A stretch of DNA of 64,000 bases. Origin: Rhizophagus irregularis (taxonomy: Eukaryota > Glomeromycota > Glomeromycetes > Glomerales > Glomeraceae). Numbering within the stretch: the first letter of the stretch is position 1; each line of letters opens with the position of its first letter. Location of the stretch: NCBI RefSeq assembly GCF_026210795.1, contig NC_089455.1, positions 1,798,001-1,862,000 of the forward strand, in the 5' to 3' direction. Of this stretch, positions 7,544 to 63,027 are shown one piece after another. The position numbers were made by a program, and so were the translations under genes. The notes under the pieces were generated by a model that worked only from the letters and a program-made list of their open reading frames with translations, did not search any database and was not told the DNA's origin.

Positions 7544-8455
7544 TAGGGATGTTAAATTGCTTCAACAAAGCATATTTAAACCGAGTTTAAGCACAAGTTT
7601 TTTTCAATAAGCTTTAATATGCTTTTAAACGTGCTTTGAGCTTGCTTAACACTTTTGTTAATATGAACTTAAAAAAGTATATATATAGCGTGTTTGATCA
7701 AAATAGCTGTAGTTTCACTCATCATAATTTTTTCTAATAAATCCAAATGACTGAAAATGAAATTTTAGAATATAATACTAATGCATTTTTTCTTTTTTCT
7801 TATTATTGACGATAATACAAATCTTACAGAAATAAATTCAATAAATAATAATCACAATGTTACATTAATAAATGATGATACGCCTGATAACATAAATGAA
7901 ACTGCATTTAACTCCATCCAAATCTATTATAAAACATATGCCAAAACGGTGAAAAATTGATCCTGTTTGTGACTTTATTGATGATACTAATAATAATAAT
8001 CTTGTAAACTTTGCCACAAAGAATATTCCCAGTAAGCAAATTTTTTAGTTGCCAAACATACAATTAGTCCAACCTGGAACTGGTTATTAACAGAAAATGT
8101 TCATGCAAGCCTCTGCCTTAAAACTTGGTATGAAGCAATATTATTAAAAATTATTCGAAAAATCAATAAAACTTCAGCAAATATGTATTTAAATAATATA
8201 GATATAAAAAATTAAATATAAATAAAAATAAATCTCAAGCTCCAATATAATTTGATTAAGATTTATCATATAATGAAATAGATAAGCAGGCTTACAAACT
8301 CGCTTATGTAAATCTAATCTAACTATATAATATACTGTGTTTAACTAATATAGTAAGTTCAATCACTTGGAAGCTTATTTTCTTAAAAAAGCTTAAGCTT
8401 AAAGCTGTATTGAGTCGAACTTAAACTGAACTGGTTTAGCAAACTAATATCCCTA
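7544..8455. mobile_element. hAT-like element with decayed coding remnant
   Basis: Ends are TAGGGATGTTAAATTGCT and AGCAAACTAATATCCCTA. They are flanked by ATTTTTTG (7536-7543) and ATTTTTCG (8456-8463), an 8-bp duplication with one change. Subterminal regions repeat GCTTTAA/TTAAGC words in both orientations (for example AAAGCTTAAGCTTAAAGC near 8390). Between about 7747 and 8160 the + strand keeps short fragments that read like a decayed hAT N-terminus (for example KRSCVCDFIDDT after frame repair by eye), with several stops and shifts. Confidence 0.7.
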
Positions 8456-8933: not shown

Positions 8934-9570
8934 GAGGCCCTCTTTATACATGAAGTCGAAATTAAAGTCCAAAAGTAGAAATATTTCGACTTGGGAAGGT
9001 CAAAAGTCGAAATTAAAGTTGAAATGGTCAAAATTACATTATAGTCATGTGATTTTTATAATTATAATTTAATATAAAATTTTTAACGTGAATAACTTCG
9101 TCAATATTGATGCTACAGATATGAAATACATATCATTGGAATCCTCTTGATGAGCTGAATCCAACCGCATAAAGATCATAAATATTGAATCACTGGATGC
9201 GGAGTTCGTTAACTTTGAATTTTAAAAATTATTGTTTACTATAAAAATTATAAGACTATTTAATACCAAATTTTAAACGTGAATAATTCCGTCAATATTG
9301 ATGCTACAAATATGAAATACATATCATTGGAATCCTCTCGATGAGCTGAATCCAACAGTGTAAAGATCATAAACATCGAATCACTGGATGCGGAGTTCGT
9401 TAATTTTGAATTTTAATATTATTGTTTACTATAAAATCATATGACCATGACGTGATTTCGACCATTTCAACTTTTGGAGGGGCTCAAGTCGAAATAATTT
9501 TGACCATTTCAACCATTTCGGAGGTTAAAATTAACCAATTTCAGTTTCATATATAGCCCTCTCAACCTTC
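8934..9570. mobile_element. Repeat-worded element, GTCGAAAT type
   Basis: The left side opens GAGGCCCTCTTTATACATG. The right side is loosely its complement (CATATATAGCCCTCTC). Possible 8-bp duplications are AATATCAG (left) and AGTATCAG (right), with one mismatch. Near both ends the word GTCGAAAT or its complement ATTTCGAC recurs. The boundaries are less certain than for the other word elements. Confidence 0.55.
9085..9460 (+). repeat. Tandem duplication, unit 191 bp, two copies
   Basis: AACGTGAATAA(C/T)T(T/C)CGTC starts at 9085 and again at 9276. Each unit contains CATTGGAATCCTC(T/C)(T/C)GATGAG and ends near CACTGGATGCGGAGTTCGTT. The units match over almost their whole length and lie inside the GTCGAAAT element. 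They carry words shared with the hairpin module found elsewhere in the window. Confidence 0.85.
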
Positions 9571-16869: not shown

Positions 16870-17736
16870 GGGTATTGCTAAATATCATTAGTGGTGATTG
16901 TCACCACACCACTTAATTCTGGCCGAAAATTATAATTTTGGCCAGAGTTAAAAAACACATCATAATTTTTTTTTCAAAAATTTCAATTTAAATAATAAAT
17001 GTGTAAAACAAAACTGAGTAGATACTAATCACACTAAAATTTTGAAAATTTGACTAAAAAAAATCTTTTTTAAAACAAAAAATTGTATTTTGCTTATAAA
17101 ATCAAACTTTCCTATTTTTCTCAAAAACTATCTAAACAACAGCCTTTATAATCTAAGGCAAACTTGTTCTACCCATAAATTTACATATAGTAATGATATT
17201 TATATTATAATTAGAATAATGTCACAGTTAAGGTTGCTTGCCGAAACCTGTTTGGCCTAATGCCGAAAGGTGAAACCTCTTATATAGTGCCGAAACGCCA
17301 AAACGCCAAAACTGCGAAACCTGTCAAAATTGCGAAACTGCCAAAACATGCCGAAACCTCTATAATAGGTTTCTCCGTAGTTTCGGCATAGTTGATCATA
17401 AGATTTGCATATAGTTACGCCAAGTTACACCAATTAATAATATAATTTAGATGATCAAATAATCTACAGATAAAAGATTAAACTTCAATATTTTACCGTC
17501 GTCTTAGTTCTTTTAAGCTTTATCTAGTGTTAGAATTTTCATTTCTAACTCCCATATTAATATTATGATATTACACGTTTTTACAGTTTTTTTTTAAGGG
17601 GCTTATATTCATTAAAGGAAAATGCGTAACATGCATTTAATAAACCCAATTCCATCATCTCCTTTAACACTGAACTAAAGTTTCTTTTACTTTCTTCCAT
17701 TTTCTTAATAATAATATTAATAATAAACTGTTTCAA

Positions 17737-20044
17737 ATGACTGATCACATAGAAGATTCACCCATTAAAATGAAAAATAGAGGAGGTCGGCCACCTAATA
17801 GCATTTGGGAAGATATTAATAAAGGAGAAGCTGTTGGTTCTGGCAAATTTGCCGCCTCCTGCAAGTACTGTAAGAATACATGGTCACGCGGTGAAGTTTC
17901 AAAGCTCGAAGAGCATCTTTCAAACCATTGTCCAGATGCGCCAGCAGCAGTTGTTAGAAGGTATATGACTAAAGTAATGGAACGGCAAGGGAGTAAGGTC
18001 CAAAGTTCAAATAAAAAAAGAAAATACTCTGAAGGTCAAAGTAACATGGATGATTACCATGATTCAACAGAGCTTAACGAACAAAGATGTACACGAATTA
18101 ATCGTGCATTAGTTAAATTTTTTATTGCGTGCGGAATTGCGTTTAGAGTAGTGAAACATCCCTTTTTCATCAATTTTATAAAAGAGCTTAATGCCGGGTA
18201 CAATACACCAACAAGGGAAGTATTAGTAAATCAACTACTTGAACGTGAATTAGCTCAAGTGAACTTCAAAGTTAATTCTGAGCTTGAAAAGGAAACGAAT
18301 TTAACGTTAGGTTTGTTAAATTAAATAGGCTATCATACGTCATTTTTATTTAATCTTACTTACTATATAATATTAATTTATAATTTAGCCTTTGATGGTT
18401 GGACGTCTGGTACACATCGTTCAATTTGGAACTTCATTGTAATGACTCCGTCGCGTAAAGAATATCTTTATCAACTTTCTGATTTGTCTGAAAATTCGCA
18501 CACTGCAGAATATCTAGTTACGGTAATTGAAAAGGTTATAGAAGGTATTGGAGAAGATCGAATATGTGCTGTAGTTTCCGATAATGCGGCCAATGTTCGT
18601 AATGCACGAAAAATTATACATGAGAATCATCCAAAGATTGAGAATGTGCGATGCGTTGCACATTCTATCAATTTAATTGCATGCGACATCGTCAAGGAGA
18701 AGTTTGGGGAACGTTTATTAAAACGTGTTAATATTTTCGACAACCTTTTTTAGAAGTTCTCATCAGGCTAATGCAAAACTTGCTCAAATAATTAAAGAAA
18801 AAGGAATTAGTGGAGGAGGATTAAAATTATATTGCAAGACACGCTGGACTACTGCTAGTGAATCCGTAAATTCAGTAATAAATTTGGAATCAGCACTAGA
18901 AGAAATGGCCAGCGATCACGATAAAGTGCTAACAAATGATAAAATAAAACCGATTATTCAATCGAGAAATTTTTTTTCAAATTTACGAGTTCTTGGATTT
19001 GTTCTGGATCCTCTAAGAAAAGCGGTACTTTCATTAGAATCGAGAAGAGCTACACTTGCAGATTGTTTCCTGAGCTTGGCAAGACTTGCAGCTACATTAA
19101 AAAAGTTACCCAAATCATTAAATCCTGCATTCCGAAGTCATTGTATCAAAGTAATAAATGAAAGATTTGATGAATTCGATGATGATAAGTATATTACTTG
19201 TTTTTTTATGGATCCCAGATTTAGAAACGCGCCACTTAAAAAATGCGCCCTCATGAGAATTATCAAATGTGCAGCTTCAATCGGGAAAAATTTAGGTTTC
19301 GACCGTTACGAAGCTGAAACTTTATGTGATCAAATACAGAAATATATTAATGAGCAAGAGCCATTTGACCTAGATATCGGTTTTGCTAAAGATAATCCCG
19401 TGAATTGGTGGAAATATATTAATACCGAACCAGAACCAGATGTCCTGCCAAGAATTGCAAGTTATCTATTTGCAATATGTCCTAACTCAGCAACTTGCGA
19501 ACGTGGATTTTCGACTTTAGGATGGCTATTTCATAAACGTCGCTTAAATCTTAATGTGGATAAACTAGAATCCATGTGCAAATTAATTTTGTATTGGAAA
19601 TCCAATTCAAAAACTGAACTTGGATTTTATGGAATTGATCAAAAAAAGAATACTCGTCTTAGTGATGATGAGATCAATATACGTATTGCAGAAGCTTTTG
19701 CAGAAGATGACGATGAGGAATATAATGAGGAGCAAGCTTCTACTCAGAGATTAACTACAAGCGGCGAAACAATACCCGAAGACAATTGCCGTGTAGTAAT
19801 CGAAAGTCTATGGATTGATCAATTTGTTAATTTATCACATGATTCAATTACTAGTGAAATCGGCGATATTCCAAGAGATATATTGGATGATTCAGATGAA
19901 AATAATGCGGAAGATGATGAAGTTGATGATAGTGGTAATAACAAGAGACCCGGAGAAGGTGACTATGATTATGATATAGATGATGTATTAGGTATGGATG
20001 ACGGTGATAATAATGACGATAATTATGATGATAATGAGGAATAA
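17737..20044 (+). pseudogene. hAT-family transposase with BED zinc finger, one frameshift
   Basis: This is the transposase expected to bind the element ends and move it. From the ATG at 17737, residues about 14-75 form a BED finger (RGGRPPNSIWEDI, CKYC, then LEEHLSNHC). The first exon runs to 18310. A 78-nt GT-AG intron (18311-18388) joins NLTL to AFDGWTSG, the conserved hAT catalytic-core start. VVSDNAANVRNARK, near the second catalytic Asp, follows. At about 18745-18750 a run of six T breaks the frame; with five T the reading would go from IFDNL to FRSSHQANAKL. The last piece holds the C-terminal dimerisation region (NPVNWWKYI, then SATCERGFSTLG) and an unusual acidic Asp/Glu/Asn tail of about 100 residues. 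Combined length is about 740 residues. Except for the single T-run change it looks complete, so a sequence error there would make it intact. Confidence 0.88.
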
Positions 20045-20239
20045 TAATAATGAGAAATAATTACAATAGTTAATCCAATGAGAATTAATTCTAATATCAT
20101 GTGATTTAAATAATGATACTATTTAGGAAATAAATGATGTAATTATGCAGGGCAAAATATTCACGATCAAAGTCCAGTTAACATATAATTATGCAGGCAA
20201 TGCAGGCAATTGTAATTTTATATTATATTTTAAAACATT

Positions 20240-20490
20240 GCAATTTAATTAAGGAATAAGGATAAGCATATTATATTTTAAAAATAGTGCAATTTAATTA
20301 AGGAATAAGGATAAGCATATTATATTTTAAAAATAGTGCAATTTAATTAAGGAATAAGGATAAGCATATTATATTAGAATCAATAAGTTTTAAGGACTTC
20401 GTTAATTAAATTTATTACATTAGATCAATAAATTTTAAGAACTGCGTTACAAAAAAAAATTTAGAACTGCGTTAATTAAATTTATTACAT
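20240..20490 (+). repeat. Tandem repeat, 49-bp unit, about three copies, plus a second short duplication
   Basis: Units start GCAATTTAATTAAGGAATAA at 20240, 20289 and 20338; the first two copies are nearly identical. Right after, AATTAAATTTATTACATTAG with AAGAACTGCGTTA is duplicated (about 20400-20490). It lies between the two genes of the hAT element. Confidence 0.8.
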
Positions 20491-20713
20491 TAGAATCAAA
20501 ACTGTGTTTATTTTGTTACAAATACTTTAATTATGTAGAATGTTATTATGTTCATCAGTTCATGTTTTAAACATTATAACGAATTTTAAAATTATTATAA
20601 ATATTATGAAATTTGAATTTTTTTTTCGCAATTCAAAACCAAATTGTATTTTAATTTTCAAATTGTATTTAATTTTCAAATTTCAAGTTACGAAAAAATC
20701 ATAAAAATAAAAA

Positions 20714-21383
20714 ATGGCAGCATTAGTACCTTTTGTCCCACCGCCACCACCAGTATTCCAATGGACGATTAACGCAGCTAGGCAATTAATCGCGGAGCGG
20801 AAAACTTACATCAGCAATTCGAAAGAATTGCAAACCGTCATCATGTAAATGCGTGGACAATAATAGCAAATAGGGTGTTCGTTGCAACGGGATTTGCAGC
20901 AACACCCGAGGCAATGCCAAACAAAATGGAATGCCCTCAAACGAGGTTATGAAAACCTCAGTAGGATAATAAATAATAATGATGACGACATTCCTATTAT
21001 AAGCCCAAATAGTTTCGATAGAGCGTATTTGCTGATATGAACGATGAATTCTGGTTACAAACCGGTAATTATTATTAATTATTATTTTAAATTAATTTTA
21101 TTTAGGCAATTCATTCAATTCATTAATATTTTTATTGGATTTTAGATCTGTTTAGACGAGAGTATCGACGGCAGCATGCTGCGCATGATCGACGTCGATA
21201 TGAATATAGATTGCGAAGGGAAAGAAGAAGGTCGCGATCTAGGTACCGATCGAAGTAGATCGAAGTAGAGATAGAAGACGAGATAGAAGTAGAGATAGAA
21301 GACGAGATAGAAGTAGAGATAGAAGACGGGACAGAAGTAGAGATAGAAGAAGAGGTAGAAGCAGGTCCCCACATAGAAGATAA
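20714..21383 (+). pseudogene. Second gene of the hAT element: Myb/SANT-like head with Arg-Ser-rich tail, broken
   Basis: The start is the ATG at 20714 (MAALVPFVPPPPPVFQW). Following the reading through small frame changes (near 20800, 20930 and 21030) gives TINAARQLIAERK, then FERIANRHHVNAWTIIANRV, then LKRGYENLSRII, then MNDEFWLQTG. This Trp-containing three-helix pattern resembles Myb/SANT-like (trihelix) domains. A likely GT-AG intron (about 21064 to 21145) joins to an arginine-rich tail (LFRREYRRQHAAHDRRRYE) that runs into RSRDRRRDRSRDRRRD repeats, ending at the TAA at 21381. The tail DNA is a 24-26-bp tandem repeat. No homologue is recalled with this pair of parts inside a hAT element. 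The domain call is by eye. Confidence 0.5.
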
Positions 21384-21791
21384 AGATATTATTAAATTTT
21401 AATTTTTATTATATTTTTAATCGTGTATTTTATTAGTTTAATATTAAATATTATAAAATAAATATTTACATACAAAAAATCATATTGTCTTTAATCTTTA
21501 TTCTTATAAATTGTTTAAATGCTGAAACTCTAATTAAATCATATAGAAAGTATTGCCGAAACGCCGAAACAGTTTCGGCAAGTTACGGCAGTTTCGCGAT
21601 TTTGATAGGTTTCGCAGTTTCGGCATTTCTTGATGATTTCGCGAAACTAGTTTCGGCAGTTTCGTGTACGCCATTCTGCCGAAACCCTCTAGTTTCGGCA
21701 AGCAACCTTAGTCGCAGTCAAAAATTTTTGAAAATTCAAAAAATATTTTACATGTAGTGACGATCACCACTGGTGATATTTAGCAATACCC

Positions 21792-47082: not shown

Positions 47083-47728
47083 TAGAGTTCTAAATGGGTC
47101 AGGTCAGGTCAGGTTAATTGATAAATCTGACCTGAAATTTTTTTTCAGGTCAGGTCAGGTCAGGTTATTTGTTTGACCTGATCTAAACTGAAACCTGAAA
47201 ATTTTCAGGATTTTTATTAAAATATCAAAAAAAAATGATGCAAAACATTTTTTTTGAAAATATTGCGATTCACTTTTTATATTAAAATCATATAAAAAGG
47301 TGAATCACAATATTGCAACTAGCTTTTTTTATATAAAATCAATATAAAAAAGTGAATTCCGATACCGCAATTCACTTTTTTTATATAAAGTCAATATAAA
47401 AAAGTGAATTCCGATACTGCAATTCACTTTTTATATATAAAATCAATATAAAAAAGTGAATTCTGATACCGCAATTCACTTTTATTATATAAAATCAAAT
47501 ATAAAAAAGTGAATCCCAATATTGCAACTCACTTTTATTATATAAAATCAAAATTATAATACCATCACTTATATTATATAAAATTATAATTTCAGGTCAA
47601 CAGATCATTCAGGTTATATTAATGTTACAACCTGAACTGATGCTGAATTGCAATTGCTAAACCTGACCTGATAAATTCAGGTTAACCTGTCAGGTTACCT
47701 GAATTTGGTCAACCTGTTCGGAACTCTA
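47083..47728. mobile_element. hAT-like non-autonomous element, CAGGT-word type, copy 1 (646 bp)
   Basis: Starts TAGAGTTCTAAATGGGTCAG and ends GTTCGGAACTCTA. A perfect 8-bp duplication ATTTAACC flanks it (47075-47082 and 47729-47736). Both subterminal zones are made of CAGGT/ACCTG words. The centre (about 47262-47560) is a tandem array of hairpin units. Confidence 0.88.
47262..47560. repeat. Tandem hairpin array, about 60-bp unit, four to five copies
   Basis: Each unit is AAAAAAGTGAATTCCGATAC followed by CGCAATTCACTTTTT, itself an inverted repeat, joined by ATATAAAATCAATAT. Related units reappear at about 60045-60095 and 61040-61165, inside the second CAGGT element. Confidence 0.85.
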
Positions 47729-48014
47729 ATTTAACCTAATAATGTAATATTTCACGAGTTATTTATTTGTTTATCTACTATATTAAACAATACATTTCTT
47801 TTCTTTTTCCTTTCCTTCCTTTTTTATTTTCATTACTATTTTTTCTTTTTCTCTAGATGGATTTCTCATATATCTTTTCATTTTTCTTTCGATACTTCCT
47901 TCTTCCCTTCATTTCCGATCTTCTACTCTTCTTTTGCCATTAACATTTTGAACTTTAACCTTTTAATATGACATATTTTTTTTAGCTTTATTTATTTGTT
48001 TTTATTTTTTACTA

Positions 48015-48431
48015 CAGTGCATACAACTTAGTCCCAGCAATTAAATTTGATGAAATTTAAATCACTACTATTCATTCAAAAAAAAAGATAAACATAAAGT
48101 ATAAACGTACAATGATAAACCAGATTAAGCTTAATAAAACTATGTTTTTAAATTTCCTGTAAGGTATTTTTTAATAAAGTAGTAGCAATTCAAAGTTGAA
48201 ATATTTTACTATTGAATTAAATATTTGGCCATTTTATTCTAACCAGAATTACATGTAAATCTGGCCAAAATTACTTTCGTTTGTTAAAATTATATATAAT
48301 TCTGGCTAGAATTAAGAATTATAACTTAAATTAATAAATCTGACCAATAAAATTACAGGGTTAAGTATTACATAATATAAAAAATTTGGCCGCTTAAAAA
48401 TTTTTTTATTGGGACTAGGTTGTATGCACTG
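48015..48431. mobile_element. pogo-like MITE, 417 bp
   Basis: Ends are CAGTGCATACAACTTAGTCC and GGACTAGGTTGTATGCACTG. TA flanks both sides (48013-48014 and 48432-48433). Inside, TCTGGCCA/TCTGGCTAGAATT words recur. Confidence 0.8.
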
Positions 48432-48683
48432 TAATTAACTATTTTTTTCTTTTTTTTGTAAGTTCTTTAACATCTTACTAAGTAGTAAATTTTAGGTTTT
48501 TTTTAGAATTCTATAAATCTATTTTCTTTATAGAACTAATCAATTCTTTTTCTTTTTTTTTTGTTAGTGTTTCTTCTTGTGTTTTTTCTTGAATTTCTTT
48601 TTGGATTTTCTCTTATGTTTTTCTTGGATTTCTTTGGAACGTGCCAGAAATCAACTGATTTGAAAGGGGTGTGGATGTCAAGG

Positions 48684-49194
48684 TCATGCTCGCAACGATT
48701 CAGCTCAAATCAAATCAATTCAAATTCAATTTGGATTTGGTTTGATTCGATTCAATAATTTTTGATTTGCGAATCAAACTCAAATCTGAAATTTTGATTC
48801 GAACTCGAATCTGAATCAAGTCTGATTTGATTCGATCATGTAACATTACAAAAAAGGAAATTTTTATTACCGCAAAAATGGAAAAAAATGTTGCACATGA
48901 TTGTACAAGTTTTTAAAAAAGGAAATTTATTTTTGCTGATTCTCGGAATTTCCTTTTTGGGCGATACCCATTTCACAAAAATAATTTTTTATGAACCACG
49001 CAGATATCTTTTTTAGATCTTATGTAACATTCAACCTAAAAGGAAAAGATTAGTGATTCATCGAATTGAATTGAATCTCAAATCTAGCCTGATTTGATTT
49101 GATCAAATCCAAATCTAAAATTTTATGATTCGAGTTTGATCATCAAATCCAAATCTAACCTGATTCGATTCAATTTGATTCGTACAGAACACTA
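48684..49194. mobile_element. Repeat-worded element, GATTC/AAATC type
   Basis: Ends TCATGCTCGCAACGATTC and (complement) TAGTGTTCTGTACGAATC are related to the TAGAGTTC termini. Both subterminal zones are chains of GATTTGATTC/GAATCAAATC. I find no clear target duplication, so it may be old. Confidence 0.6.
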
Positions 49195-49852
49195 GGGAAG
49201 TTAAGCTTTATATCAGGTCTATATATATTATGTGACATTTATATATTTAAATATAAATGTAAGTAATTTAATTTGTAATTTAGCAATCATGTGTAGTATT
49301 TTTATAATTAATTTTCAGGGGATTTTTACTATTTATAAATGCAAATGATCGTCAAATACAAGAAATACCATACTATTAAAAATTTTTTTAGAATAATCCA
49401 ATTGTACTAAAAATCACATGTGTTGTTTGTGAAATGTGTATCAGACAAAAAAAAATTTTTTTGTTTATATGTTTGTTTTTATATTTTATTTGGGGCACCT
49501 GTGAATTCCAGTAATAATGCTATATATAATATTTTAACAATTGAACTCTTTCCTGTACCGTTCACGTCCATTTTTCATACAAGAAATATTACGCTTTTTC
49601 TCGTTAAATTACTAGAAAAATAGCACTTCAGTATTAAGACAAAAGTGTTCCTTGGTTTAAACAACACACTTTTTATTATTACTCTTTTCAGTTCAAACCA
49701 GTTCACAAGGGCTTAATAGTCCTTTAAAGACATAAAAGTTTTGTTTTCTTGCGAAATTTTTTCAAAAGAAGGCGTAAATACGGTGCACCAATCAGATAAA
49801 AGATGCCGAATAAAGAAAGTTTTATCAGCTATACTTTTTTCCGTCCAGAAAA
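49195..49852. other. Spacer without a supported gene
   Basis: Contains one 67-codon ORF without conserved character and possible leader sequence for the following decayed gene. Confidence 0.4.
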
Positions 49853-51117
49853 GTGAAATGGTACACGGGGGCTGATACGATATACTCCACCCGAAAAGGA
49901 AAGTCCTATATCCTTTTACATGTGGATTCGTTACAGAAAGAGAAAGATATGTTGACGATTGTTACCAACAATAGACATATAATAAAGAAATATGATAAGC
50001 CTTTTTCGATTAATTCAGATCGGCCTATGATGAATACTAAATACAGGATTTCAAAATACTTGACGAGTGTATTTTGTGGGTTACCTATTGACATAGAAAC
50101 TAGAAACAAGTATTTTTTAAGAATACGTCAATTATTATTGGATAAACTTGTAGTTATTGAAAATAGATTGAAGAAACAAGAAAAGAACAGGCAAACTACA
50201 ACTTATATTAAATTTAGTCATGGTAGACGTACATGGTATTTGGGGTTCTACATTCCATGCTCGTTTTGTAGTAACGTCTGTGCTTACGTAATGTCAAGAA
50301 ATAGAAAAGTTTGTCAAAATTGTCGTTCGAAGGTAATAGTAACTCCTACACCTCCGCCGCAAAATGTGTTTAAGAATTTTAGTAAAGTTAAATAAGTAAT
50401 AAGTAAACGCGTTGGCGTGTCTTATACAAAAAAAGTTTTGATGAATGGTAGAGCACGTAAATATGCAGTTACGTATTCAAATTTGCAGATAAACAAGCAA
50501 TTTAAGACGTTGAAAGAACAAGAGAAGTATAAAAAGAGTTTAAAAACAGCCTCAAGAGTAATAAAAATAAATGGCAGGTCACAAATAATGGAATTGGATC
50601 AAAGGTACTTATTTCCAAACATAAGTTGAAATGTAGACATGATATCCTTAAGAAACAATACATATCAGAAAAAGAAATGGAGTTTCTGGTAGATCAAGTT
50701 ACAAGTGAAGTTGGATATAAAATGTTAATAGATGATATTTTTATTAATCATTCTTTTAACGAAGAACATTTTCTCGAATTAAGAAAGAAAAAAGACGCTT
50801 CTTTTGAACGAAAAGATAGTAAGTTAGCAGAACAGTCAAGTAGTGCTGGTCAAAGTGCTACGATAGACAATATTTTTACGGACCTTCAAGAAATGGAAAT
50901 TAGTGGACAGGATAATGTCGCTCCTTGGCAAGAAATACTCAATAGATGAGAACCTATTACAAGGGCAGAATTTCATCGGGGTTTGAATAGTATTAGAGAT
51001 AAAAGTCTTTTAACGACATATTGTAATGGGGTTAGAAGAGGGAGGCGTGCACGTGGTGTTACTCATGACTACGTGATTAATCAGTGTGCAATTAAAGCTC
51101 GTAAATTAGAGCAAGGT
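49853..51117 (+). pseudogene. Retroelement-like gene of unknown family with a four-Cys zinc ribbon, broken
   Basis: From the ATG at 49853 (MKWYTGADTIYSTRKGKSYI) the frame reaches a TAA at 50393 and continues beyond it in the same frame (RVGVSYTKKVLMNGRARKYA), so the stop is a point nonsense change. A frame change near 50575 leads to a third piece (about 50590-50949, with a TGA at 50947 and open sequence after it). Residues about 136-158 have CSFCSNVCAYVMSRNRKVCQ, with a further Cys two residues on: a likely zinc-binding knuckle. The C-terminal part is Lys/Glu-rich. It ends at a good donor-like GTATGT (51117). I do not recognise the family. Its place next to a LINE 3' end suggests a TE gene, but this is inference. 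Confidence 0.45.
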
Positions 51118-51540
51118 ATGTTATATTAAGGGGACATAAATATATAATTAGTTATTCTTGTTTTGTTTTTCTATTTTCTTTTGTGGGATGGCTAATTATT
51201 AAGAAACAAATTATCAAAGGGAAAACATGAATAATTATTTTAGCATTTTAGATCATTCCTTATCTGATAATATTTACATAAGGCTATTTGGTTAGAAAGA
51301 AAAATATATAGTCATTTTTGTCTATTGAATTTATTTTTAGTTTCACATCATTCCATATTTGATTATATTTACATATGGCAAATTTTATTTGAAAGAAAAA
51401 TATATAGACTTCTTCAGTAGTTTTATCGAATTATTTAGAAAAGTTTTCGTTTATTTCATCATTCTGTATCTGATAGTATGTACATACAGCTTTTTTAATA
51501 AAGAAAGAATCATACATGCACGTTATTTATAACGTGTAGG
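51118..51540. repeat. Non-coding stretch with three diverged units of about 100 bp (possible intron)
   Basis: TCATTCC-TATNTGAT(A/T)ATATTTACATA-like blocks recur near 51253, 51345 and 51457, each followed by GAAAGAAAAATATATAGA or similar. The interval starts GTATGT and ends GTGTAG directly before GCGGAATTAATG, so it could be a 424-nt intron. Confidence 0.45.
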
Positions 51541-52712
51541 CGGAATTAATGGCAGTGATTTTAAGTTTAATGACCTATCCTAAAACTGCAAATGTCAAAA
51601 TATATAGCGATTCTCAATGGGTAGTGAATATATTTGATGATTTAAACTTTTTGACGATTAAAGATATAGAAAGATCAAAAGTTAATTATAAGGTTTTATG
51701 GTTATGTTTATTCAAGATAATTAGGATTTATAGTCTCAAAGTAAAAATAACTAAAGTTAAAGCACATAGTGATTGTGATCATAATAAAGAAGCAGATAAG
51801 CTCGCTAAATTTGGTGCTGAGAAAAACGTATTAATAATAGAGGATAAATTGTTATTACACAATGGTACAGTTTGTTGGAGAGATATGCCTATAGAACGTA
51901 ACCCTATCCTTATGATAAAGGAAATAAAGGACGCTCAATTTATAGAAGAATTCCTAATGTTACGCCGTAATGAAGTCTATAGACAATCAGATCTATTAAG
52001 GTTGATAGATTGGAAAATATCTTTAAAGTTAAATAACATAAATCAATATGATACATTGTTTGAGGATCATTATTTACAATCATTTAGGATTAAAATTTGC
52101 TGTAATGAATTACCAACTTGTGCTAATTTAAAGAAGCGAAAGCCAGATCTATATGATGAAAATTGGAAATGTAATTTTATTAAAATAGAAGAAGAAACCT
52201 TTGACCATTTTTGGAAATGTGGTAAGATTCAAAATGTGGTGCAAGATATACTCACACGATTAAAAATTTTCTTAGTTAAAATCATACAAGAATATTCAAG
52301 AGATGATATAGATATACATGAATTAAAAATTAAAATTAATGAGCTCAGTATGTGGGATATTGGACGCTTATATGATTTTACATTTTTAATGAAGAATCAA
52401 ATTAGTTGTCAGTTAATGGAATTATTAAGGTGCTATAAAATAACTGAAGAAAAATTGTTGTATAAGGTATTGAAACAAATAACTGGTAGAGTTTTATTAG
52501 AATTCAAAGTGCTTATTTGGGAACCAAGGAACGAATTACAAATAAAGGAAGAAAAGCGGTGCGGTATTAGCAGTAAAGATAAAAAAGCTAAGTCACATAG
52601 TAAACGCACTGAAGTTGGTGTTAAAAATGTTGACTGTAATATGTTAGAAAGTAATTGGAATAAATGGAATAATTTGTCATTCCATCGTGGCGGTCACTGG
52701 GCAAATTTTTAG
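51541..52712 (+). pseudogene. LINE ORF2 C-terminal fragment: RNase H domain and zinc-knuckle tail
   Basis: RNase H removes RNA from RNA:DNA hybrids during LINE copying. Visible motifs are AELMAVILSLM (catalytic Glu), KIYSDSQWVV (Asp), VKAHSDCDHNKEADKLAKFG (His and Asp). The first catalytic Asp block is missing because the upstream reverse transcriptase and endonuclease are absent. Downstream, KICCNELPTCANLKKRKPDL and a Cys...His...Cys pattern ending ETFDHFWKC are the usual C-terminal knuckle of this LINE type. The frame is open for 387 codons, so the fragment is better preserved than its neighbours. It is followed by about 220 nt of 3' leader and a poly(A) run. Confidence 0.8.
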
Positions 52713-52946
52713 GTAGATCATGACAGTCACCTTTGAATTTGAGGTCGCATCATGGTTTTTAACAATGATGTGATCGTTTAGGTGACAGGTCGACTTGTTC
52801 TTTATGAAAAGTAGTCTTGTTTCATAATGCTTAATTCTTATATGTATTTGTTTATCTTATATTTTATAAGTTTATATATGTAAGTAAGTGTGATTATAAT
52901 AAGACATGATCGCATCTATAATAAAGTTTTAAAAAAAAAAAAAAAA
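52713..52946 (+). other. LINE 3' untranslated region and poly(A) tail
   Basis: Inverted words GACAGTCACC (about 52729) and GGTGACAGGTC (about 52782) make a hairpin. An ATAATAAAG signal-like sequence precedes 16 A (52931-52946). This is the 3' end expected of target-primed LINE insertion. Confidence 0.65.
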
Positions 52947-53057
52947 TAATATTTTAACAATTTCGCTCTGAATAAACTGAAAATTAATTTACTTAACTTC
53001 TATTTATAATTTATAAGTTTATAACCATTTTTTTGTATATAAATTTGTATTTTTGAA

Positions 53058-54825
53058 AGGATCATTTTAACGCTCACCGGAGGTTAAATTCACCGGAGGA
53101 CTCCGGAAGGTGAATTTCACCATATCACGTGATATTTATTATTATATTAAAATTTTGCTAAGATCAGTAATTACGTAACTTCAAATTTTTATGTTAGATT
53201 AAATGGTTAGTGGATGGGTGTAATAGTTTAATTAAAGTTATGTATATTCTTGTAATTTAAAAAGAAACTTTTCGTTAATAAAACTTTATAAGTTTATGCT
53301 AAATGGTCAATAGAAAAACTTTTTTACACGTTTTTATTCAAAGTTTTTTATTAATTTAAAACCTATAGTAATGCATAAGATATATAATCCTTTATAATTC
53401 AGTTAACAATTAATAATTTTATGACGGAAAAGAAATGAATATGTAAAAAAGGGATGAAGTGGATGATGAAATTAAAAAGACAATGTGAAAAATGAAATTG
53501 GAGTAAAGGGATAATGAAAAACAAAATGGGAGTGAAATAGGATGATGTAAATGAAATGGAATGTTGCAAAACGAAATGGAGTGATAAAAAACGATATGGA
53601 GATGATGGAAAATGATATGGAGCGATATGAAATGATGAAAACCGATATGGAGCGATATGGAATGATGAAAGATGACATGGAGCGATATGGAGTGATGAAA
53701 AATGATATGGAGTGATATGGAGCGATATAGAACGATATGGAACGATATGGAGTGATGAAAAATGATATGGAACGATATGGAGCGATATGGAGTGATGAAA
53801 AATGATATGGAGTATATAGAATGATATGGAGCGATATGGCGTGATGAAAAATGATATGGAACGATATGGAGCGATATGGAGTGATGAAAGATGATATAGA
53901 GCGATATGGAGTGATGAAAAACAATATGGAACGATATGGGAAGATATGGCGTGATGAAAAACGATATGGAGCGATATGGAATGATGAAAAATGATATGGG
54001 TGATGAAAAACGATAACGGAATATGGAGTGATGAAAAATGATATGAAGAAATATGGAGCAATGAAAAATGATATGGGGCAATATGGAGTGATGAAAAATG
54101 ATATGGAGTATATATAGAATGATATGGAGCGATATGGCGTGATAAAAAACGATATGGAATGATATGGAGTAATGAAAAACGATATGGAGCAATCAGCAAT
54201 ATGGAGTGATGAAAAATGATATGGAGCGATATGGAGTGATGAAAAATGATATGGGAGCGAAAGGGACGATGATAAATGAAAAGGATAATTAAAAACAAAA
54301 TGGGAGCAAAGGGAATGATAGAAAAATAAAATGGAGGCGAAGGGAATAATGAAATAATAAAAAACAAAAGGAGCGAAAAAAATAATAGCAAATAAATGAA
54401 AAGGGAGTGAAATGGATATAGAAAATAAAAAGGGAATAAAGTGATGATAGAAAATAAAAGAAACTGTTAGTATTATTTTCAATAAAGAAAACAATAAAAT
54501 AGCAAAATACTAGCAATAAAAGTGAGTCTTTTACCTTAAACCTCTTGAAGTTATTTGAAATTGTTTTCTGAAAAATAAGTTAACAAGTTAGCATAAGAGA
54601 AAAAGAACATTAAACTAGCGAAGTAATAAGAAAATAAAAAAAATCTTACCTTAAAGAAGTTCCAGCCATTTTGGAAATAATACTACAAGAAAGTAAAAAA
54701 CAAAATATGCGCTACGCGTTTGTGTAATATGAAATCACCTGGTGAATTTCACCGGGGTAAATTTAAAATTTTAATGCATTGCAGATCAAGGTGAAATTCA
54801 CCGGAGGTGAATGTAAAATTAATCC
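53058..54825. mobile_element. Repeat-worded element, TTCACCGG type, filled with a minisatellite
   Basis: Left AGGATCATTTTAACGCTCACC and right (complement GGATTAATTTTACATTCACC) are diverged inverted ends. An 8-bp direct repeat TTTTTGAA flanks them (53050-53057 and 54826-54833). The TTCACCGGAGG word or its complement repeats at both ends (53075-53125 and 54735-54810). There is no gene; long minus-strand ORFs here are minisatellite artefacts. Confidence 0.72.
53540..54260 (+). repeat. Minisatellite of GATATGGAG(C/T)GATAT words
   Basis: Alternating 12-bp (ACGATATGGAGC-like) and about 30-bp (TGATGAAAAATGATATGGAG-like) units fill about 720 bp, with looser copies to about 54450. All three minus-strand frames are open because the repeat lacks stops on that strand. 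Confidence 0.88.
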
Positions 54826-54874
54826 TTTTTGAAATATTGTTTTATTCAAAACTTATGTATTATTAACGTAAGTA

Positions 54875-57800
54875 CTATGGCTGATTTTGCATTTGACGCT
54901 CTAAAGCTATAGCCGCCATTTTATGTTTACAAGTTGCAGAATATCTACTAATCCAATTTTCAATTGTTTCTATTTTTGGTATTATTTCAGGATCCAACTC
55001 TCCATTATTTACCATATGGATAAGTTCTGATAACATATCATTAGCTGAGTATCGATCACTTTTATCAGCATTACCTGCATAAAAAAAACCTTGCAATAAT
55101 GCAATAACCTTTTTTGATATTCTTGCTCCACCTCTTTTTCTAAACTTTTGATTTGCTTTTAACACCCATCCAGATGTAAGTTGAAATTCTGTATTAACAC
55201 TATAATATAAGCAGAAGTCAATCTAATTATTTTATAACTCAGTTTAAAAACAAGTAATATAAAATAAGGTTGGTTTTCTTACTTGAAATTATTTTCTGTA
55301 TCTACAATTCCATTGTTAATTTGCACTAAATTTTTATTAGATGTATTTATTCGTAGATGCTTAAAAGAGGTATCTAAAAATTGAATAATTTAGCAATTAT
55401 TGGATTTATAGAGTAACAAATTAAAAAAAAATTACCAGAATTCGGCACTGGTATGGTCTACAAAGATTTTGGCACAGAAGGTGTAGAAATCATTGGATTT
55501 GGTTTTGTTATTTCAATTTTTGATGAATTTCGTGTTTGTATAGGAGAATAATTGGTAAAACTACCTATATTTGGTAAGGTACGTGCTTATATAGACTCTG
55601 CAAATGGCCCATTGATTGGCTATTTCCATTCATTCATATTAGATATCCCAATCAATGATTTATCTTTTTATCAGTTTTTTCATGATTAGGATTTATTTCC
55701 TCTACTGATGTACCACATAGATCTTTGATTGAATTTTTTATATCACTGCCTTCTCTAATTTCAAACCCAATTCTAACATATCTTTTAATGGCATGCGCAA
55801 TCTATGTGAAGTGTGAACCATTTTTAGTACTCTAAAAAAATAATAATTGTTATGTATTTATTAGATCTGACCTGTGCATGGTGAGAATCTATAGCTGTTT
55901 TTGCCTCTCTAGCTTCCAAAAAAATCCAACTCTTTACTTCAATATCGTACCAATCCTTCCAATGTGCCATTATAATCCATAACTTCAAATATTGCGTGAA
56001 GTGAAGAAGCAGTAAACCATATGTCCTGTCTTGTATCTGCTGACCAGTAGTCAAATGCGGCTACATTTAGTTTTTCATTTTCCAATTTGGTATACATCAA
56101 TATAGAATGTAAAGTCCAACCCTTTTTCCAAAAAATTCAGACTTGGATTTTTGTGCTGATTTTGGTAAGATACATATCTTATAGTCAACAATAAGTATAG
56201 CCTCATCATTATCTAATTCTAATAAATTTGCTTGAACCTGTGCATTAAGATATACTTTTCACGTTTGATGTGCCAAATAATGAAGTAATTTTTCTTTTTT
56301 ATCGTCTATAAGTTGTATTTCTTCAGCTAGGAGAATTGATTCTAATTTATCAAAAAATGAATAAAGTTTTGGACAATGCGAACACCTTATACTATGCATC
56401 TTATTACATTCACCAAATGCATAAGGTAAGCAGTGATCAATACATTCATCATGTTCAGCATGACCATAGGACCCCGAAGAATACATATACAACTCAGATC
56501 CAGACCCAAAATTTTAATATAACTTTATACGCCTAATTTTATTAGAAGCTTTATACAAAATCATCACATAAGTTCAAATTTTATTATAAATTATACAATT
56601 ATAAATCTGAGTTTATATAAAAAAAAATTTTTAAAGAAAAATTTCAAATAAATTTTATTGAAAATTTTAATAAATATTATTAAAAACTATTTAAAAATTC
56701 TAACAAATACTTAAAAAATTTTTTTTAAAAAAAATTATTAAAAAAAATTATTAAAAAATAACTTAAATAAAATTTTTAAACAAAATTGCATGTTAAAATT
56801 TTAAATACCCGATAGATATTGATGCCCAATATGTATAATATAGTAAGTTTTATGCAAAAATTTGGGTGTATACTACAAAATAAAAGAAAATACATTTTGT
56901 TATATATCTCACCACCCAGTGATCGTAAAAAGATGAAACACAGCTCGTTGGATTCGTCTTGACAAGACGAATCGAATGGTAGTAGTTTCGTGTTTCTAGG
57001 TGTGATAGATGATGAGCTATACCACACATCGGCACTTTGTATTTTCGTCTACTATGCATTTTTACATTTTATCACATAACTCGGCATCTATCGTGCCTAG
57101 AAATATATGATACTACTACCATTCGACTCATCGTATTGAGACGAATCTAATAAGCTGTGTTTCATTTCTCTATGATCACTGGATGCTGAGATATATAATA
57201 AAATGTATTTTTTTTTAATTTTGTAAATGAATTTTAAAAAAATTTCTTCATTTTTATTAAAAAAATGTCTTTAAACGAACCCTTAAAAACTTCTTAAACA
57301 AAAAACAATTTCCATTAAAAAATATTTCAAGTGTTTTTTAAAACAAATAAAAAAACTCTTTATTAAAAAATATCTTAAAAATTTCTTAAACAAAAAATAA
57401 AAAAAAACTTTAAAAAATTTTAAACGTATATAAAAAAAAATTCTAATATCCGTTATACAAAATGAAAATCTTACTTATTGTAAAAATCATTATTGTTATA
57501 CAAATAAAAATCTGACTTTTTGTGTAACTGCTATTTGGTTATACAATTTCAAATATATGACTTATTAAGAAATTACATAGTAAGTTTATACAAAATTGGA
57601 TCCCAGTATTATATGTATTCTTCGGGGTCCTATGACCATTACTTTCAATGCTAATTTTACGTATATATTCTCTTTTCATATGACGTTTAATTAGTTCTAC
57701 ATCTATATTTTTTTTTTAAAAAAAAAAATGTAAAAAATAATTTATGAATAAAGTACAGAAATTATGTAAATTACATACTTGAACTGAAAGATTTTCAACA

Positions 57801-58474
57801 TGCAATCTTATAATTTTAGCTAAATCATCAAATACTTCATATTCGTATTCTGCACAAATTGAACACAACCCTCCCAAGTCTTCACGATACCTATATGGAC
57901 CATCTTCAATCCGACCTATAAATGCCATTCTTTTCATACCATTAAGATAAATTTCTGAAAATCTTTTTCATAATGATTCTTTTTGATCAAGCAGGTAAAG
58001 AATCGGACGATTAGTTCTTGGATCAACCTTATACGAACTCATATTAACATTTGCTTTGTCTGAAAAAAAAGCTTTAAATTGGTCTTCTATTTCTTTAGTA
58101 AAAGGTGAGATACGTATAATTATAGGTTTTTTTATTTGTCGGTATCCTAAACCATTAAGTGTAGCATATTTTCTTGCCGCATTAATAGTTGTAGATGAAA
58201 CCTAAATTAATATCATCAAATTTATTTAGAATATTTCATAAAGATATATAAGAATATAGTTCATATTATTATATTTACTCCAAGTCTATTTTGTAATTCC
58301 TGATAAGAAAATTAATGTGCAATAAGCCAATAATGGATAAAATTCGTCGTATTCTATCAGGACCTTTTGGATTTTGTGTTAAACTTTTCGCAAAACAATC
58401 CTAAAATATTTGTGATGGATTTTGAATACTTGATGGATATGAATTTAAAAAGCCTAGTTGAAAGAGATTCTTCA
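54875..58474 (-). pseudogene. Broken gene of a multicopy Rhizophagus-type family, interrupted by a MITE and cut at its 5' end
   Basis: Pieces in order on the minus strand: a helix-turn-helix-like start (about 58330-58150, SYQELQNRLGV then SSTTINAARKYATLNGLGYR), then about 58140-57720 (GMKRMAFIGRIEDGPYRYRE, with a Cys-x2-Cys in GLCSICAEYEYEVFDDL). The MITE at 56469-57630 follows, then HDECIDHCLPYAFGECNKMH with RCSHC (56490-56259), ILIVDYKICILPK-like sequence (about 56190), KDWYDIEVKSWIFLEAREAK with TAIDSHHAQ (about 55960-55870), and the end piece (55165-54875, KFRKRGGARISKKVIALLQG). Stops and frame changes separate most pieces and some gaps may be introns. The HTH, Cys/His clusters and the Asp/Glu/His-bearing core would suit a mobile-element protein, but I cannot name a function. 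The 5' end is lost where the element starting at 58475 inserted. Confidence 0.6.
56469..57630. mobile_element. GGACCCC-end MITE, copy 2 (1,162 bp), inserted in the broken gene
   Basis: Inverted ends GGACCCCGAAGAATACATAT (56469) and its complement (ending 57630) match over at least 20 bp. TA flanks both sides (56467-56468 and 57631-57632). Gene sequence NGH continues across the insertion. The centre (about 56880-57205) is a hairpin with TCTCACCACCCAGTGATCGT and its complement, plus GGATTCGTCTTGACAAGACG. Confidence 0.88.
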
Positions 58475-58774
58475 TAGAGTTCTGAATAAGTCAGGTCAAG
58501 TCAGGTTAATTGATAAATCTGACCTGAAATTTTTTTTCAGGTCAAGTCAGGTCAGGTTATATCAGGTTGTCTATTTGACCTGACCTGACCTGAAACCTGA
58601 AAAATTTCAGAACTATTTTTATTAAAGTATTGAAAAAAAATGGTACAAAACTTTTTTTTTTAATATAATATTATAAAAAAAATGTTTTTGCACCGTTTTT
58701 TATTAAAATATTGAAAAAAAATATTGCAAAATGTTTTTTTTAATATAATATTATGAAAAAAATGTTTTCGCAAC

Positions 58775-59937
58775 TAAAGCTCCGAACAGATCAGTTTGGT
58801 CCAGATTATAGACGGTTCGAATTAAAGCTGAAATCCGTAAGAACTGAACTGAAAAACTGGCGGTTCAGTTTGGTTTAATCTGATTTTTATAAAAATGCGA
58901 AAAATTGAATAGCCGTCAATCTAGTAATCGTAAAAAGTCGAGCCATATATCATTGGATTCGTTTCAACGAGACGCGTCGAATGGTGGTAAGATCATGTCT
59001 CTAGCATCAATAGATCACACGTTAATCCACGCTAAATGATTTGTCAATAATTGGAATTATTAAGCTATCTATCAATGCTAGAGACATGATCTTAGTGTTA
59101 TTCGACGTGTCTCAGTAAGACGAATCCAATGAATATAAATTCGTCCATGTACGACCACTAGATGGCGAATAATATCAAGTTTTGCATTTTTTTAAAATTT
59201 TCAAGCGTTAAAAAATTAAAAATTCCGATACATGAATTTATTCATCGTCCAATGGTCGTACAAATATGAATTAGGACTCATTGGATTCGTCTCGATGAGA
59301 TGAGTCAAATGGTGGTAAGATCACGTCTCTAGCATCGATAAATAGCTTGATAATGCCAATTTTTTATAAATTATTTAGTGTGAATTAACTTACGATCTAT
59401 TAATACTAGAGACATGATCTCACCACCATTCGACTCATCTCATCGAGACGAATCCAATGAGTCCTAATTCATATTTATATGACCATTGGACGATGAATAA
59501 ATTCATGTATCAGAATTTTTAATTTTAACGCTTGAAAATTTTAAAAAAATGCGAAACTTGACATTATTCGCCATCCGGTGGTCAGACACAGACGAATTTA
59601 TATTCATTGGATTCGTCTCATTGAGATGCATCGAATGACGCTAAGATCATGTCTTTAGCATTGATAGATAGCTTAATAATTCCAATTATTGATAAATCAT
59701 TTAGTGTGGATTAACGTGTGATCTATTGATGCTAGAGACATGATCAATGATATATAGATCGACTTTATACGATCACTAGATGAACGGCTATTCAATTTTT
59801 CACATTTTTATAAAAAATTGGATTAAACCAAACTAAACCGCTGGTTTTTCAGTTCTAATACCCGAACCGAACCAAACTGAATTTTGAGCCAGTTTCAGAT
59901 CAGTTCTCCGGTTTAGCCTGAACCATTAGGAGCTTTA
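58775..59937. mobile_element. hAT-like element, CGGTTC/AGTTTGG-word type, nested (1,163 bp)
   Basis: Starts TAAAGCTCCGAACAGATCAG and ends CATTAGGAGCTTTA. Flanked by TTCGCAAC (58767-58774) and TTCACAAC (59938-59945), an 8-bp duplication with one change. Subterminal zones use GTTCGGTT/AACTGAAC-like words. The interior (58905-59800) is a triple set of hairpins: outer arms 58905-59200 and 59545-59800, inner hairpin about 59225-59525. Confidence 0.85.
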
Positions 59938-60098
59938 TTCACAACGTTATTATTGAAATATCAAAAAAAAATGTTACAAAACATTTTTTTAATATAATAT
60001 TATGAAAAAAATATTTTCATAATGTTTTTTCTCAAAATATTGCAATTCAACATTTTTATATTAAAATCATATAAAAAAGTGAATCACAATACCGCAAC

Positions 60099-61035
60099 TA
60101 AAGCTTCGCATGAGCCGAGCTGGCTCACGAGCTGGCCCGAGCTAAGCTACGATTAAATTTTGCTCATGGCAGTGGAGTACTTGAATGAATTTCAGCCATG
60201 ATATGGCCGCTAAAAGAAAACTCAAGCCAGTAATAAACTCGGCTCAAAAAGCTCGAGCTGGCTTGAGTTATCATACAAAAAATGTTGCGAAAACGTTTTT
60301 TATATAATATTATATTAAAAAAAACGTTTCGCAACGTTTTTTTAATTCTTTAGTAAAAAACGTTGCGAAAACGTTTTTTTCACTATATTATTTTAAAAAA
60401 AAACGTTTCGCAACGGTTTTTTAAATTCTTTAGTAAAAAAATGTTGCGAAAACGTTTTTTTCATTATCTAATATTAGAAAAAAACGTTTTGCAACATTTT
60501 TCTAAATTCTTTAATAAAAACGTTCTGAAAACGTTTTTCTACATATTATATTGGAAAAAAAACGTTTTGCAACGTTTTTGTTCTTTAATAAAAAACGTTT
60601 GCGAAAACATTTTTTCTTATATATTATATTGGAAAAAAACGTTTTGCAACATTTTTTTAATTCTTTAGTAAAAACGTTGCGAAAACGTTTTTTTCACTAT
60701 ATTATTTTAGAAAAAAACATTTTCGCAATGTTTTTTTAAATTCTTTAGTAAAAAAATGTTGCGAAAACGTTTTTTTCACAATATTATATTAGAAAAAAAT
60801 GTTGCGAAAACGTTTTTTTCACAATATTATTTTAGAAAAAATGTTGCGAAACATTTTTCTGAAGATAAACTCAGCTATGGCAGAGCCATGAAAATCATGG
60901 CTACATTTCCATTTCACTTTTAAACGAGCCGAAATTTTTATGGCTCGGCTTATTCTGGCTCAGGCCAGAATTTTTTTTTCGAGCTGAGCTGAGCTAGACT
61001 GTGGCTCGGCTCAAGCCAGCTCATGCGGAGCTTTA
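60099..61035. mobile_element. hAT-like element, GAGCTGGC-word type, nested (937 bp)
   Basis: Starts TAAAGCTTCGCATGAGCCGA and ends CTCATGCGGAGCTTTA. Flanked by a perfect 8-bp duplication ACCGCAAC (60091-60098 and 61036-61043). Subterminal zones repeat GAGCTGGCTC/GCTCGGCTC. The interior is a tandem hairpin array. There is no gene. Confidence 0.88.
60285..60860. repeat. Tandem hairpin array with GTTGCGAAAACG words, seven to eight units
   Basis: Each unit of about 75 bp reads GTTGCGAAAACGTTTTTTTC, an AT-rich spacer ATATTAT, then AAAAAAACGTTT(C/T)GCAAC and TTTTTTAAATTCTTTAGTAA. The two halves are complementary, so each unit is a hairpin. ORFs across it are artefacts. Confidence 0.88.
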
Positions 61036-61275
61036 ACCGCAACTCTCTTTTTTTTATATAGAATCTATATAAAAAAGTGAATCGCAATACTGCAACTCAC
61101 TTTTATTATATAAAATCAATATAAAAAAGTGAATCACAATACTGCAACTCACTTTTATTATATAGTAGAATCAATAGTTTCAGGTCAACAGGTCAATCAG
61201 GTCAGGTCAATCTTCATACCTGACCTGAATTTCAGGTTAGATCTGGTCAGGTTACCTGAATTTGGCTGAGCTCTA

Positions 61276-62520: not shown

Positions 62521-63027
62521 CCGTATAGCACTGCCTAAAATACCCTGGGTATATATCAATTTTACCAACTTAAAAATTGAATTATACCCAGGGGTATCTT
62601 GTATGAAATATGAAAAAATTGGCCAGAATTAGCTGAATTCTCACCAGAATTAAGATTTTTTAACCACATATCAACCCAGGTAGGACCCCGGATATCTAAT
62701 ATAAAGGTCATAATGGACTTTTGGCCAAAAACACCCCTTTTTGCTGAAACTCAAAAAATCGTTTTTTGTAAATATCTCAGCATCCAGTAATGTAATTTTA
62801 ATGAACTTTTTTTTATTTTGTAGCCCTCATTTAGCTCTACAAGTTCATCAAAATTGGACCACTGGATGCCGAGATATTTACAAAAAACGATTTTTTGAGC
62901 CCCTGAAAAATGGGCCAATCTGCCGAAAGTGTGACTTATGACCTGTTTTGGAGATATCCGGGGTCCTACCCAGGTATATTATAATAGGATACGTGGATAG
63001 GGAGGTCTCTTAGGCAGTGCTATATGG
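62521..63027. mobile_element. MITE with GCACTGCC ends, hosting a second MITE (507 bp)
   Basis: Ends CCGTATAGCACTGCCTAA and TTAGGCAGTGCTATATGG are inverted repeats with one difference. TA flanks both sides (62519-62520 and 63028-63029). Inner words TACCCTGGGTATA and TATACCCAGGGGTA form a further inverted pair (about 62550-62600). Confidence 0.75.
62683..62966. mobile_element. GGACCCC-end MITE, copy 3 (284 bp), nested
   Basis: Ends GGACCCCGGATATCTAATAT and GAGATATCCGGGGTCC, with TA at both sides (62681-62682 and 62967-62968). The core is a hairpin: ATATCTCAGCATCCAGTAAT against CCACTGGATGCCGAGATATT, around a TTTTGTAGCCCTC/TAGCTCTACAAG centre. It is close in length and design to 15953-16248. Confidence 0.85.

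Follow-up and report, generated by a model that had tools for sequence, protein, structure and literature searches.

Transposons of the hAT superfamily are already known to have subterminal repeats, to bind them through BED zinc fingers and to vary in the motif that is bound. Maize Ac/Ds carries AAACGG hexamers in 200-bp ends, together with an 11-bp terminal inverted repeat (TIR) and an 8-bp target site duplication (TSD; PMC3260210). For the Hermes transposase it has been reported that the helix region T65-H71 of the finger touches bases, that a pair of repeats between bases 11 and 27 of the end is occupied by two BED domains and that a shift of a single base impairs cleavage (PMC10368747). 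An arrangement with the transposase core on the tip and BED domains on repeats present in multiple copies has been argued for both Hermes (PMC10368747) and Ac (PMC3260210). Motifs recovered from binding arrays for the CGGBP/hAT-19 BED proteins are diverse, often contain CGG and differ between proteins, and an AT-rich motif was obtained for one Rhizophagus irregularis protein (PMC8097297). How a transposase tells its own ends from those of its relatives is nevertheless an old question. It is considered here for hAT-like elements that carry short repeated words behind their tips in a 64,000-nucleotide stretch of the R. irregularis genome (NC_089455.1, positions 1,798,001 to 1,862,000, forward strand; hereafter the window), and for related elements across the genome (146.7 Mb searched, 32 contigs).

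We consider it probable, at roughly 85%, that these are cut-and-paste hAT transposons and their non-autonomous derivatives, in which the transposase core reads the tip and the BED finger reads the word. The core would most likely recognise the shared tip, T-A-R-N-G-N-T, and cut there, leaving 8-bp duplications, while the N-terminal BED finger would most likely read the word, copies of which, in both orientations, occupy the 60-200 bp behind the tip. A first copy of the word would be docked at a fixed distance from the end (around bases 12-19), a second zone would start at base 26, and further copies would give avidity for a multimeric transposase. This would mean that the word, and not the tip, decides which transposase moves which element.

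Word-bearing elements of the window

The window (25% G+C; the elements described here lie on its forward strand) was scanned for TARNG tips with a TIR of at least 11/14 and a TSD with at most one mismatch. Eight such pairs were found, whereas 20 dinucleotide shuffles gave 0-2 each. Five are the word-bearing elements at 4830, 7544, 17229, 58775 and 60099; the remaining three are AT-rich and look like chance.

The most useful element of the window is a full-length one at 17229-21710, which bears a transposase and its own word and was missing from the list in an earlier note on this DNA. Its TIR matches at 14/14 positions (TAAGGTTGCTTGCC), its TSD is GTCACAGT/GTCGCAGT and its word, GCCGAAAC, is found at both ends (CGAAAC, 15 copies). 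An open reading frame (ORF) at 17737-18324 encodes a BED zinc finger with contact-helix residues SK-EE, just under the Pfam cut-off (zf-BED, E 8e-4), and a second ORF at 18725-20044 encodes a hAT dimerisation domain (Dimer_Tnp_hAT, E 1.7e-5).

The earlier note had named five elements with inverted TARAG tips, and four of these are as described, each with the 8-bp duplication claimed for it. The non-autonomous hAT-like element at 4830-5113 has tips TAAAGCTTGG/TAGAGCTTGA, the TSD ATTCACAG at 4822-4829 and 5114-5121, and the word ACTTGAG, a decayed ACTCGAG. The non-autonomous CAGGT(C)/ACCTGA element at 47083-47728 has the TSD ATTTAACC, a TIR of only 10/14, which is below the threshold of the scan, and a 52-bp tandem array inside (47260-47551). 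The two others are nested, non-autonomous elements, one at 58775-59937 (tip TAAAGCTCC; TSD TTCGCAAC/TTCACAAC; word CGGTTC/AACCGA, mostly decayed to AACTGA) and one at 60099-61035 (tips TAAAGCTTCGCATG/TAAAGCTCCGCATG; TSD ACCGCAAC; word GAGCTGGC/GAGCC). The fifth, at 58475-61275, should not be counted separately: the 47083 (CAGGT) family is present here in a second copy, which encloses both nested elements and whose flanks do not pair as an 8-bp duplication. The nested elements stand at ...GCAAC sites (58767-58774 and 60091-60098) of the internal repeat arrays of this outer copy. Resemblance to such GCAAC-site arrays is also seen in the TSDs of the genomic loci L038 and L060 (GTTTTGCG and GTTTTCGC), a hint of insertion into arrays, and GTTGCGAAAACGTTTTTT-like internal arrays occur in non-autonomous elements of both the CAGGT and the GAGC type (58616-58772 and 60277-60858; L036, L037 and L039).

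Four more candidates had been put forward, with mixed results. The non-autonomous element at 7544-8455 fits well, with tips TAGGGATGTT/TAGGGATATT, the TSD ATTTTTTG/ATTTTTCG (one mismatch) and the word GCTTAA. A probable decayed hAT-like element at 48685-49194 (listed from 48684) fits in part: it has the words GATTC/CAAATC and retains one clear tip (TAGTGTTC, at 49194), but inspection of its flanks by eye found no TSD. The candidates listed at 8934 and 53058 have other tips. The first, at 8945-9555, has by eye an 8-bp duplication GCCCTCTT/GCCCTCTC with one mismatch, the word GTCGAAAT and tips TATACATGAA/TATATATGAA, which are not TARNG. The second, an inverted-repeat element at 53056-54828 with TTCACCGG words, was rejected as a TARNG-type member on its AAAGGAT tips (AAAGGATYA, read by eye); within this non-hAT element a 30-bp repeat (GATATGGAG...) recurs about 22 times at 53592-54260.

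The strength of each word was scored as the count of the commonest 6-mer in both ends pooled, set against the best of 100 Markov-resampled controls. ACCTGA (CAGGT) is found 18 times against 5 in the element at 47083 and 19 times against 5 in that at 58475, CAAATC 13 against 6 at 48685, AACTGA 7 against 4 at 58775 and AGCTCG 6 against 5 at 60099. The single copies at 4830 (4 against 4), 7544 (4 against 6) and 8944 (5 against 5) do not rise above chance. Words belong to families, not to single copies. Aligned copies of the 4830 family elsewhere carry ACTCGAGT, of which the window copy is the CpG-decayed form, and perfect duplications flank 5 of the 14 copies fetched (L024, L025, L028, L030 and L031). 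Similarly, AACCGA/CGGTTC predominates in five of seven other copies of the 58775 family, the remaining two (L074 and L077) having decayed towards AACTGA/CAGTTC. Part of the apparent diversity of words among old copies is therefore mutation.

Anatomy of hAT elements across the genome

A genome search with Pfam PF05699 gave 836 candidates, 150 of which were scored, and 46 transposase loci (20 + 18 + 8) were analysed together with L061, which lies beside a tip. By a uniform criterion (TIR of at least 10/14 and TSD with at most one mismatch) paired ends are present in 22 of these 47 loci, compared with 34 of 2162 cross-paired controls that join left and right sides of different loci. Cross-pairing replaced an earlier reversed-sequence control, in which one score reached 28 and 17 others were at most 18.3, because reversal preserves inverted repeats.

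The hAT identity suggested by the earlier note is confirmed by Pfam matches to Dimer_Tnp_hAT and BED and by Hermes as the best solved relative (8edg, E 4.6e-14 for the L001 protein); hAT-like_RNase-H matches only below cut-off. Word scoring covered 19 transposase-bearing elements, that is, 18 that were fetched and the window element at 17229, and used, among the 6-mers that contain two or more G/C, the most frequent one in both ends pooled. This end word beats all 100 resampled controls in 19/19 elements and every interior window in 16/19. A BED-like finger, identified by pattern and by eye, is found in all 19, that of L016 being broken and several lying below the Pfam cut-off. In the 19 elements the ratio of observed to expected CpG is 1.76 at the ends and 0.79 inside, and in the window it is 1.06. 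Transposase-bearing hATs nested in other hAT elements were seen at L016, L019 and L061.

The tip consensus is T-A-R-N-G-N-T, of which positions 1, 2 and 5 were imposed by the search. A short TIR with A at position 2 and G at position 5 is the consensus of the hAT superfamily as a whole. R at position 3 is found in 57/57 ends and T at position 7 in 55/57, a tally from which three of the 60 ends were dropped (the two of 8944 and the 5' one of 48685) and which includes near-identical relatives as well as 12 ends picked on their tip (the five elements of the earlier note and L060). When these 12 are left out the counts become 45/45 and 43/45.

Words are mostly constant within families, with departures between the relatives L047 and L056 and between L052 and L055. 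Some words are also shared by several families (CGGTCC, AATCGA, AACCGG and ATCCGG). Given this sharing and the constancy within families, switching looks slow, and words would diverge gradually alongside the transposase lineage.

Position of the word relative to the tip

The placing of the word was tested by learning words from bases 31-190 of both ends and mapping them on the first 60 bases (25 elements, 50 ends). An element's own word covers bases 13-18 in 56-70% of the ends, compared with 11-13%, and a maximum of 36%, for permuted words (300 permutations). It is absent from bases 1-6. Coverage dips to 24% at bases 22-24, within a trough at 20-24, and then rises to 52-64% over bases 26-40. 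Words learned from further inside the ends thus recur at a fixed place, approximately bases 12-19 from the tip, in agreement with the rigid phasing of subterminal repeats reported for Hermes (PMC10368747).

One tip, four word classes

A constant tip with several word classes, as the earlier note had proposed, is indeed found. The note saw in it a diversification of binding-site codes that might help elements to escape cross-mobilisation or host silencing. The 13-bp tip pattern TARAGYTCCGAAC has 300 matches in the genome against 36 for the reversed pattern and, when 18 further bases followed by a non-A are added, 279 against 3. Four word classes stand behind it among the 100 of the 279 ends that were listed: CAGGT (43), CGGTTC (36), GTCGAGT (10) and CGGGT (10), with one other. 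This tally was read from the bases behind the tip and counts ends, of which an element may have two, and the word classes, like the fingers, were assigned partly by eye.

Copies of the CGGTTC class have a perfect 8-bp TSD in 7/7 cases (L071-L077), picked because both tips were listed. TSDs with 0-1 mismatch flank five of the eight CAGGT copies fetched, and these five hold 16-25 ACCTGA and no ACCCGA; two of the other three are without a true second end and one is without any end. L078 combines the tip seen in CAGGT copies with a perfect duplication and 18 ACCCGA, and for the GTCGAGT class the fetched material is one end of L059. Words are also met behind other tips, CGGTTC in L019 (TAGGGATGGGGACGG; TAGGGATGGGG) and ACTCGA, part of GTCGAGT, in the 4830 family (TAGAGCTTGG).

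The few-letter differences between CGGTTC, CGGGTC, CAGGTC and GTCGAGT behind TARAGCTCCGAAC may represent one series, in which loss of CpG from the word (CGGGT to CAGGT) would be one plausible route of change. A more ambitious version, in which the tip is frozen while the BED docking word evolves, small word changes (some losing CpG) split one mobilisation pool into several that no longer respond to each other and the word is predictable from two or three BED-helix residues, seems to us unlikely as a whole.

Evidence against and alternative explanations

Several observations weigh against the reading in which the core takes the tip and the BED finger the word. By the uniform criterion 25 of the 47 transposase loci are without a TIR and TSD pair, and L046 is among them though it is one of the 19 word-scored elements. 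L045, which passes the criterion, showed nothing but an AT-rich pair when scanned earlier and may be a chance hit among the 22. Interior windows of L010, L017 and L058 are as repetitive as their ends, or more so. Words are not strictly private, as the earlier note had called them: several are common to multiple families. Finally, for the four tip-and-word families of the window, no copy with a transposase was seen among the matches listed (40 places scored of 451, 386, 43 and 42 candidates; 100 of 300 tips listed).

Four loci were considered and set aside. L059, with 3 kb between two TARAGCTCCGAAC tips, has a longest ORF of 93 amino acids and no transposase, and L062, a 2.85-kb GAGC element with the perfect TSD TTCAGTAT, has a longest ORF of 103 amino acids, no transposase and no BED match. 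L061, taken for an autonomous CAGGT copy, is actually an L012-like element adjoining a CAGGT end; it has an ST-KR finger, the word AGGAC and the TSD ACTTCAAC, and its transposase gene is interrupted by another hAT element. The TAAGGTTGC ends at L048 are apparently those of two small elements on its flanks and do not go with its transposase.

It is possible, if on balance doubtful, that the words obey a readable BED code, in which the equivalents of Hermes S66 and N67 set the word (GN giving GGAT, SS giving AATCGA and TT-ER giving GGTCC) independently of lineage. The finger helix of L001, STTTLERH, aligns on Hermes T65-S66-N67-L-C-R70-H71. Fingers and words were compared using one representative of each family below 60% core identity (22 families, four of them with one end only and two, L007 and L056, with two ends but no TSD); the broken finger of L016 was given the letters of L013, into whose family L016 collapses. 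Word similarity follows identity at 66/67 with a partial r of 0.30 given core identity (permutation p 0.0003-0.0005), in partial Mantel tests that are lenient with related sequences. GGAT/ATCC reaches 50-75 per kb in 6/6 GN families and at most 17 in 15/16 others (the exception is L043, with 67), the four BED columns that score best include offsets -5 and -4, and SS goes with AATCGA in both L008 and L042, which have 35% core identity. However, the partial r falls to 0.05 (p 0.30) once the GN group is removed, and in the careful tree a weakly supported branch (72/59) sets apart the GN rows, which may be one clade, so that a single event could account for the GN/GGAT association. Offsets -10 and -12 do equally well, L043 (SN-AV) has ATCCGG and L047 (GN-IN) AACGG, L009 has TT like L001 but another word, L019 and L058 are both STRK with words one letter apart (CGGTTC and CGGTCC), and the word shifts between AACCGG and ATCCGG inside the well-supported clade L017/L051/L043.

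The rule that the 66/67 residues give the word was fixed in writing before eight held-out loci were examined. L079 and L084 alone could be assessed; they agree with the rule, but each is related to families that had been met before. The rule does not cover L086 (GT-KK), and the other held-out loci are without a usable end or finger. Another check of words against BED fingers, which was not pre-registered, found agreement in L006, L012, L053 and L056 and none in L043 and L047. Since the association is lost without the GN group, which may itself be one event, the code is offered as a hypothesis and not as a result. Outside the window's tip-and-word families, words mostly follow the transposase lineages in the tree. 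It appears from these comparisons that words go with BED contact residues, though not demonstrably beyond common descent.

It is rather doubtful that the elements are unrelated hAT families that share a superfamily tip only, their words being ordinary family sequence with no series among them. Such a view draws on the same facts that tell against the earlier note's claim of one family based on the shared tip: T-A-R-N-G-N-T is largely a superfamily signature, tips differ by lineage (TAGGGAT, TAGTGGT, TAAAGAT and TAGAGTT) and the transposases form 22 families below 60% core identity. It can also point to CGGTTC behind another tip, that of L019 (TAGGGATGGGGACGG). However, four word classes stand behind an identical 13-bp tip (279 matches against 3), which extends beyond the superfamily positions, and the fixed phase of the word is found with all lineages pooled.

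Less probable still is a switching of words to dodge host CpG methylation, with CAGGT as a CpG-free form of CGGGT that evaded silencing and rose to be the largest class. CAGGT does outnumber CGGGT (43 to 10 among the 100 ends listed), the five CAGGT copies with good duplications contain no ACCCGA, and CG methylation in R. irregularis is reported to be bimodal, with low-methylated copies among the recently expanded hATs (PMC8647823). Against this, CpG is retained in the word by the other three classes and by most autonomous families, and CpG decay in a founder would give identical letters without selection. Very improbable, lastly, is an origin of the words as satellite-like or microsatellite expansions, or as products of CpG decay, with no role in binding: CAGGT and GTCGAGT do run in tandem and the words of old copies are clearly altered by CpG decay, but the words occur in both orientations and at both ends with a fixed first position, CpG is in excess in the ends compared with the interior (1.76 against 0.79), and family copies that keep intact duplications share one word, so that microsatellite growth after insertion, which the earlier note had named as a refutation, is rejected and its reading survives on this point.

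Other repeats in the window

A retroposon-like insertion at 49525-52960 has an ORF with an RNase H domain (51549-52712), an A-rich tail near 52932-52950 and, by eye, the direct repeat ATAATATTTTAACAATT on either side. Another inverted-repeat family is represented at 56468-57631 and 62682-62967, with perfect 14-bp tips (AGGACCCCG...) and identical 8-bp flanks (ATGACCAT; ACCCAGGT). An ORF on the reverse strand at 354-1205 encodes a DDE_3 transposase, which belongs to a different transposon superfamily.

Comparison with known systems

The tip of Ac, TAGGGATG, is followed by ...ACGG at about bases 12-15. If BED fingers read the words as proposed here, the R. irregularis genome is a natural catalogue of how such fingers choose DNA, as many of its families pair a finger with a dense and phased word. 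These pairs are ready-made for work on BED specificity and would allow a test of whether a change of word isolates families from one another. Families of hAT elements are already recorded in the species, in a catalogue whose main text does not use the term 'subterminal' (PMC11075540). In open-access titles and abstract openings we found no description of word classes behind one tip, or of family words kept in phase throughout the families of a single genome.

The closest parallels are found in three systems. Motifs of hAT proteins in the CGGBP/hAT-19 work match their own subterminal DNA; that study is one of proteins and binding arrays, and is not known to describe constancy of the tip or word classes within one genome (PMC8097297). 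Hermes shares the BED finger on subterminal repeats, the first two of which are rigidly phased (PMC10368747). However, its word, AAGT, is arranged differently in its two ends, whereas most of the elements considered here have a dense word at either end, and the word varies between families. Ac/Ds is similar in having many derivatives with little in common except the tip and the hexamers, but Ac is described with one word (PMC3260210), whereas the elements considered here use at least 12 words (counted by eye) in a single genome, four of them behind one tip.

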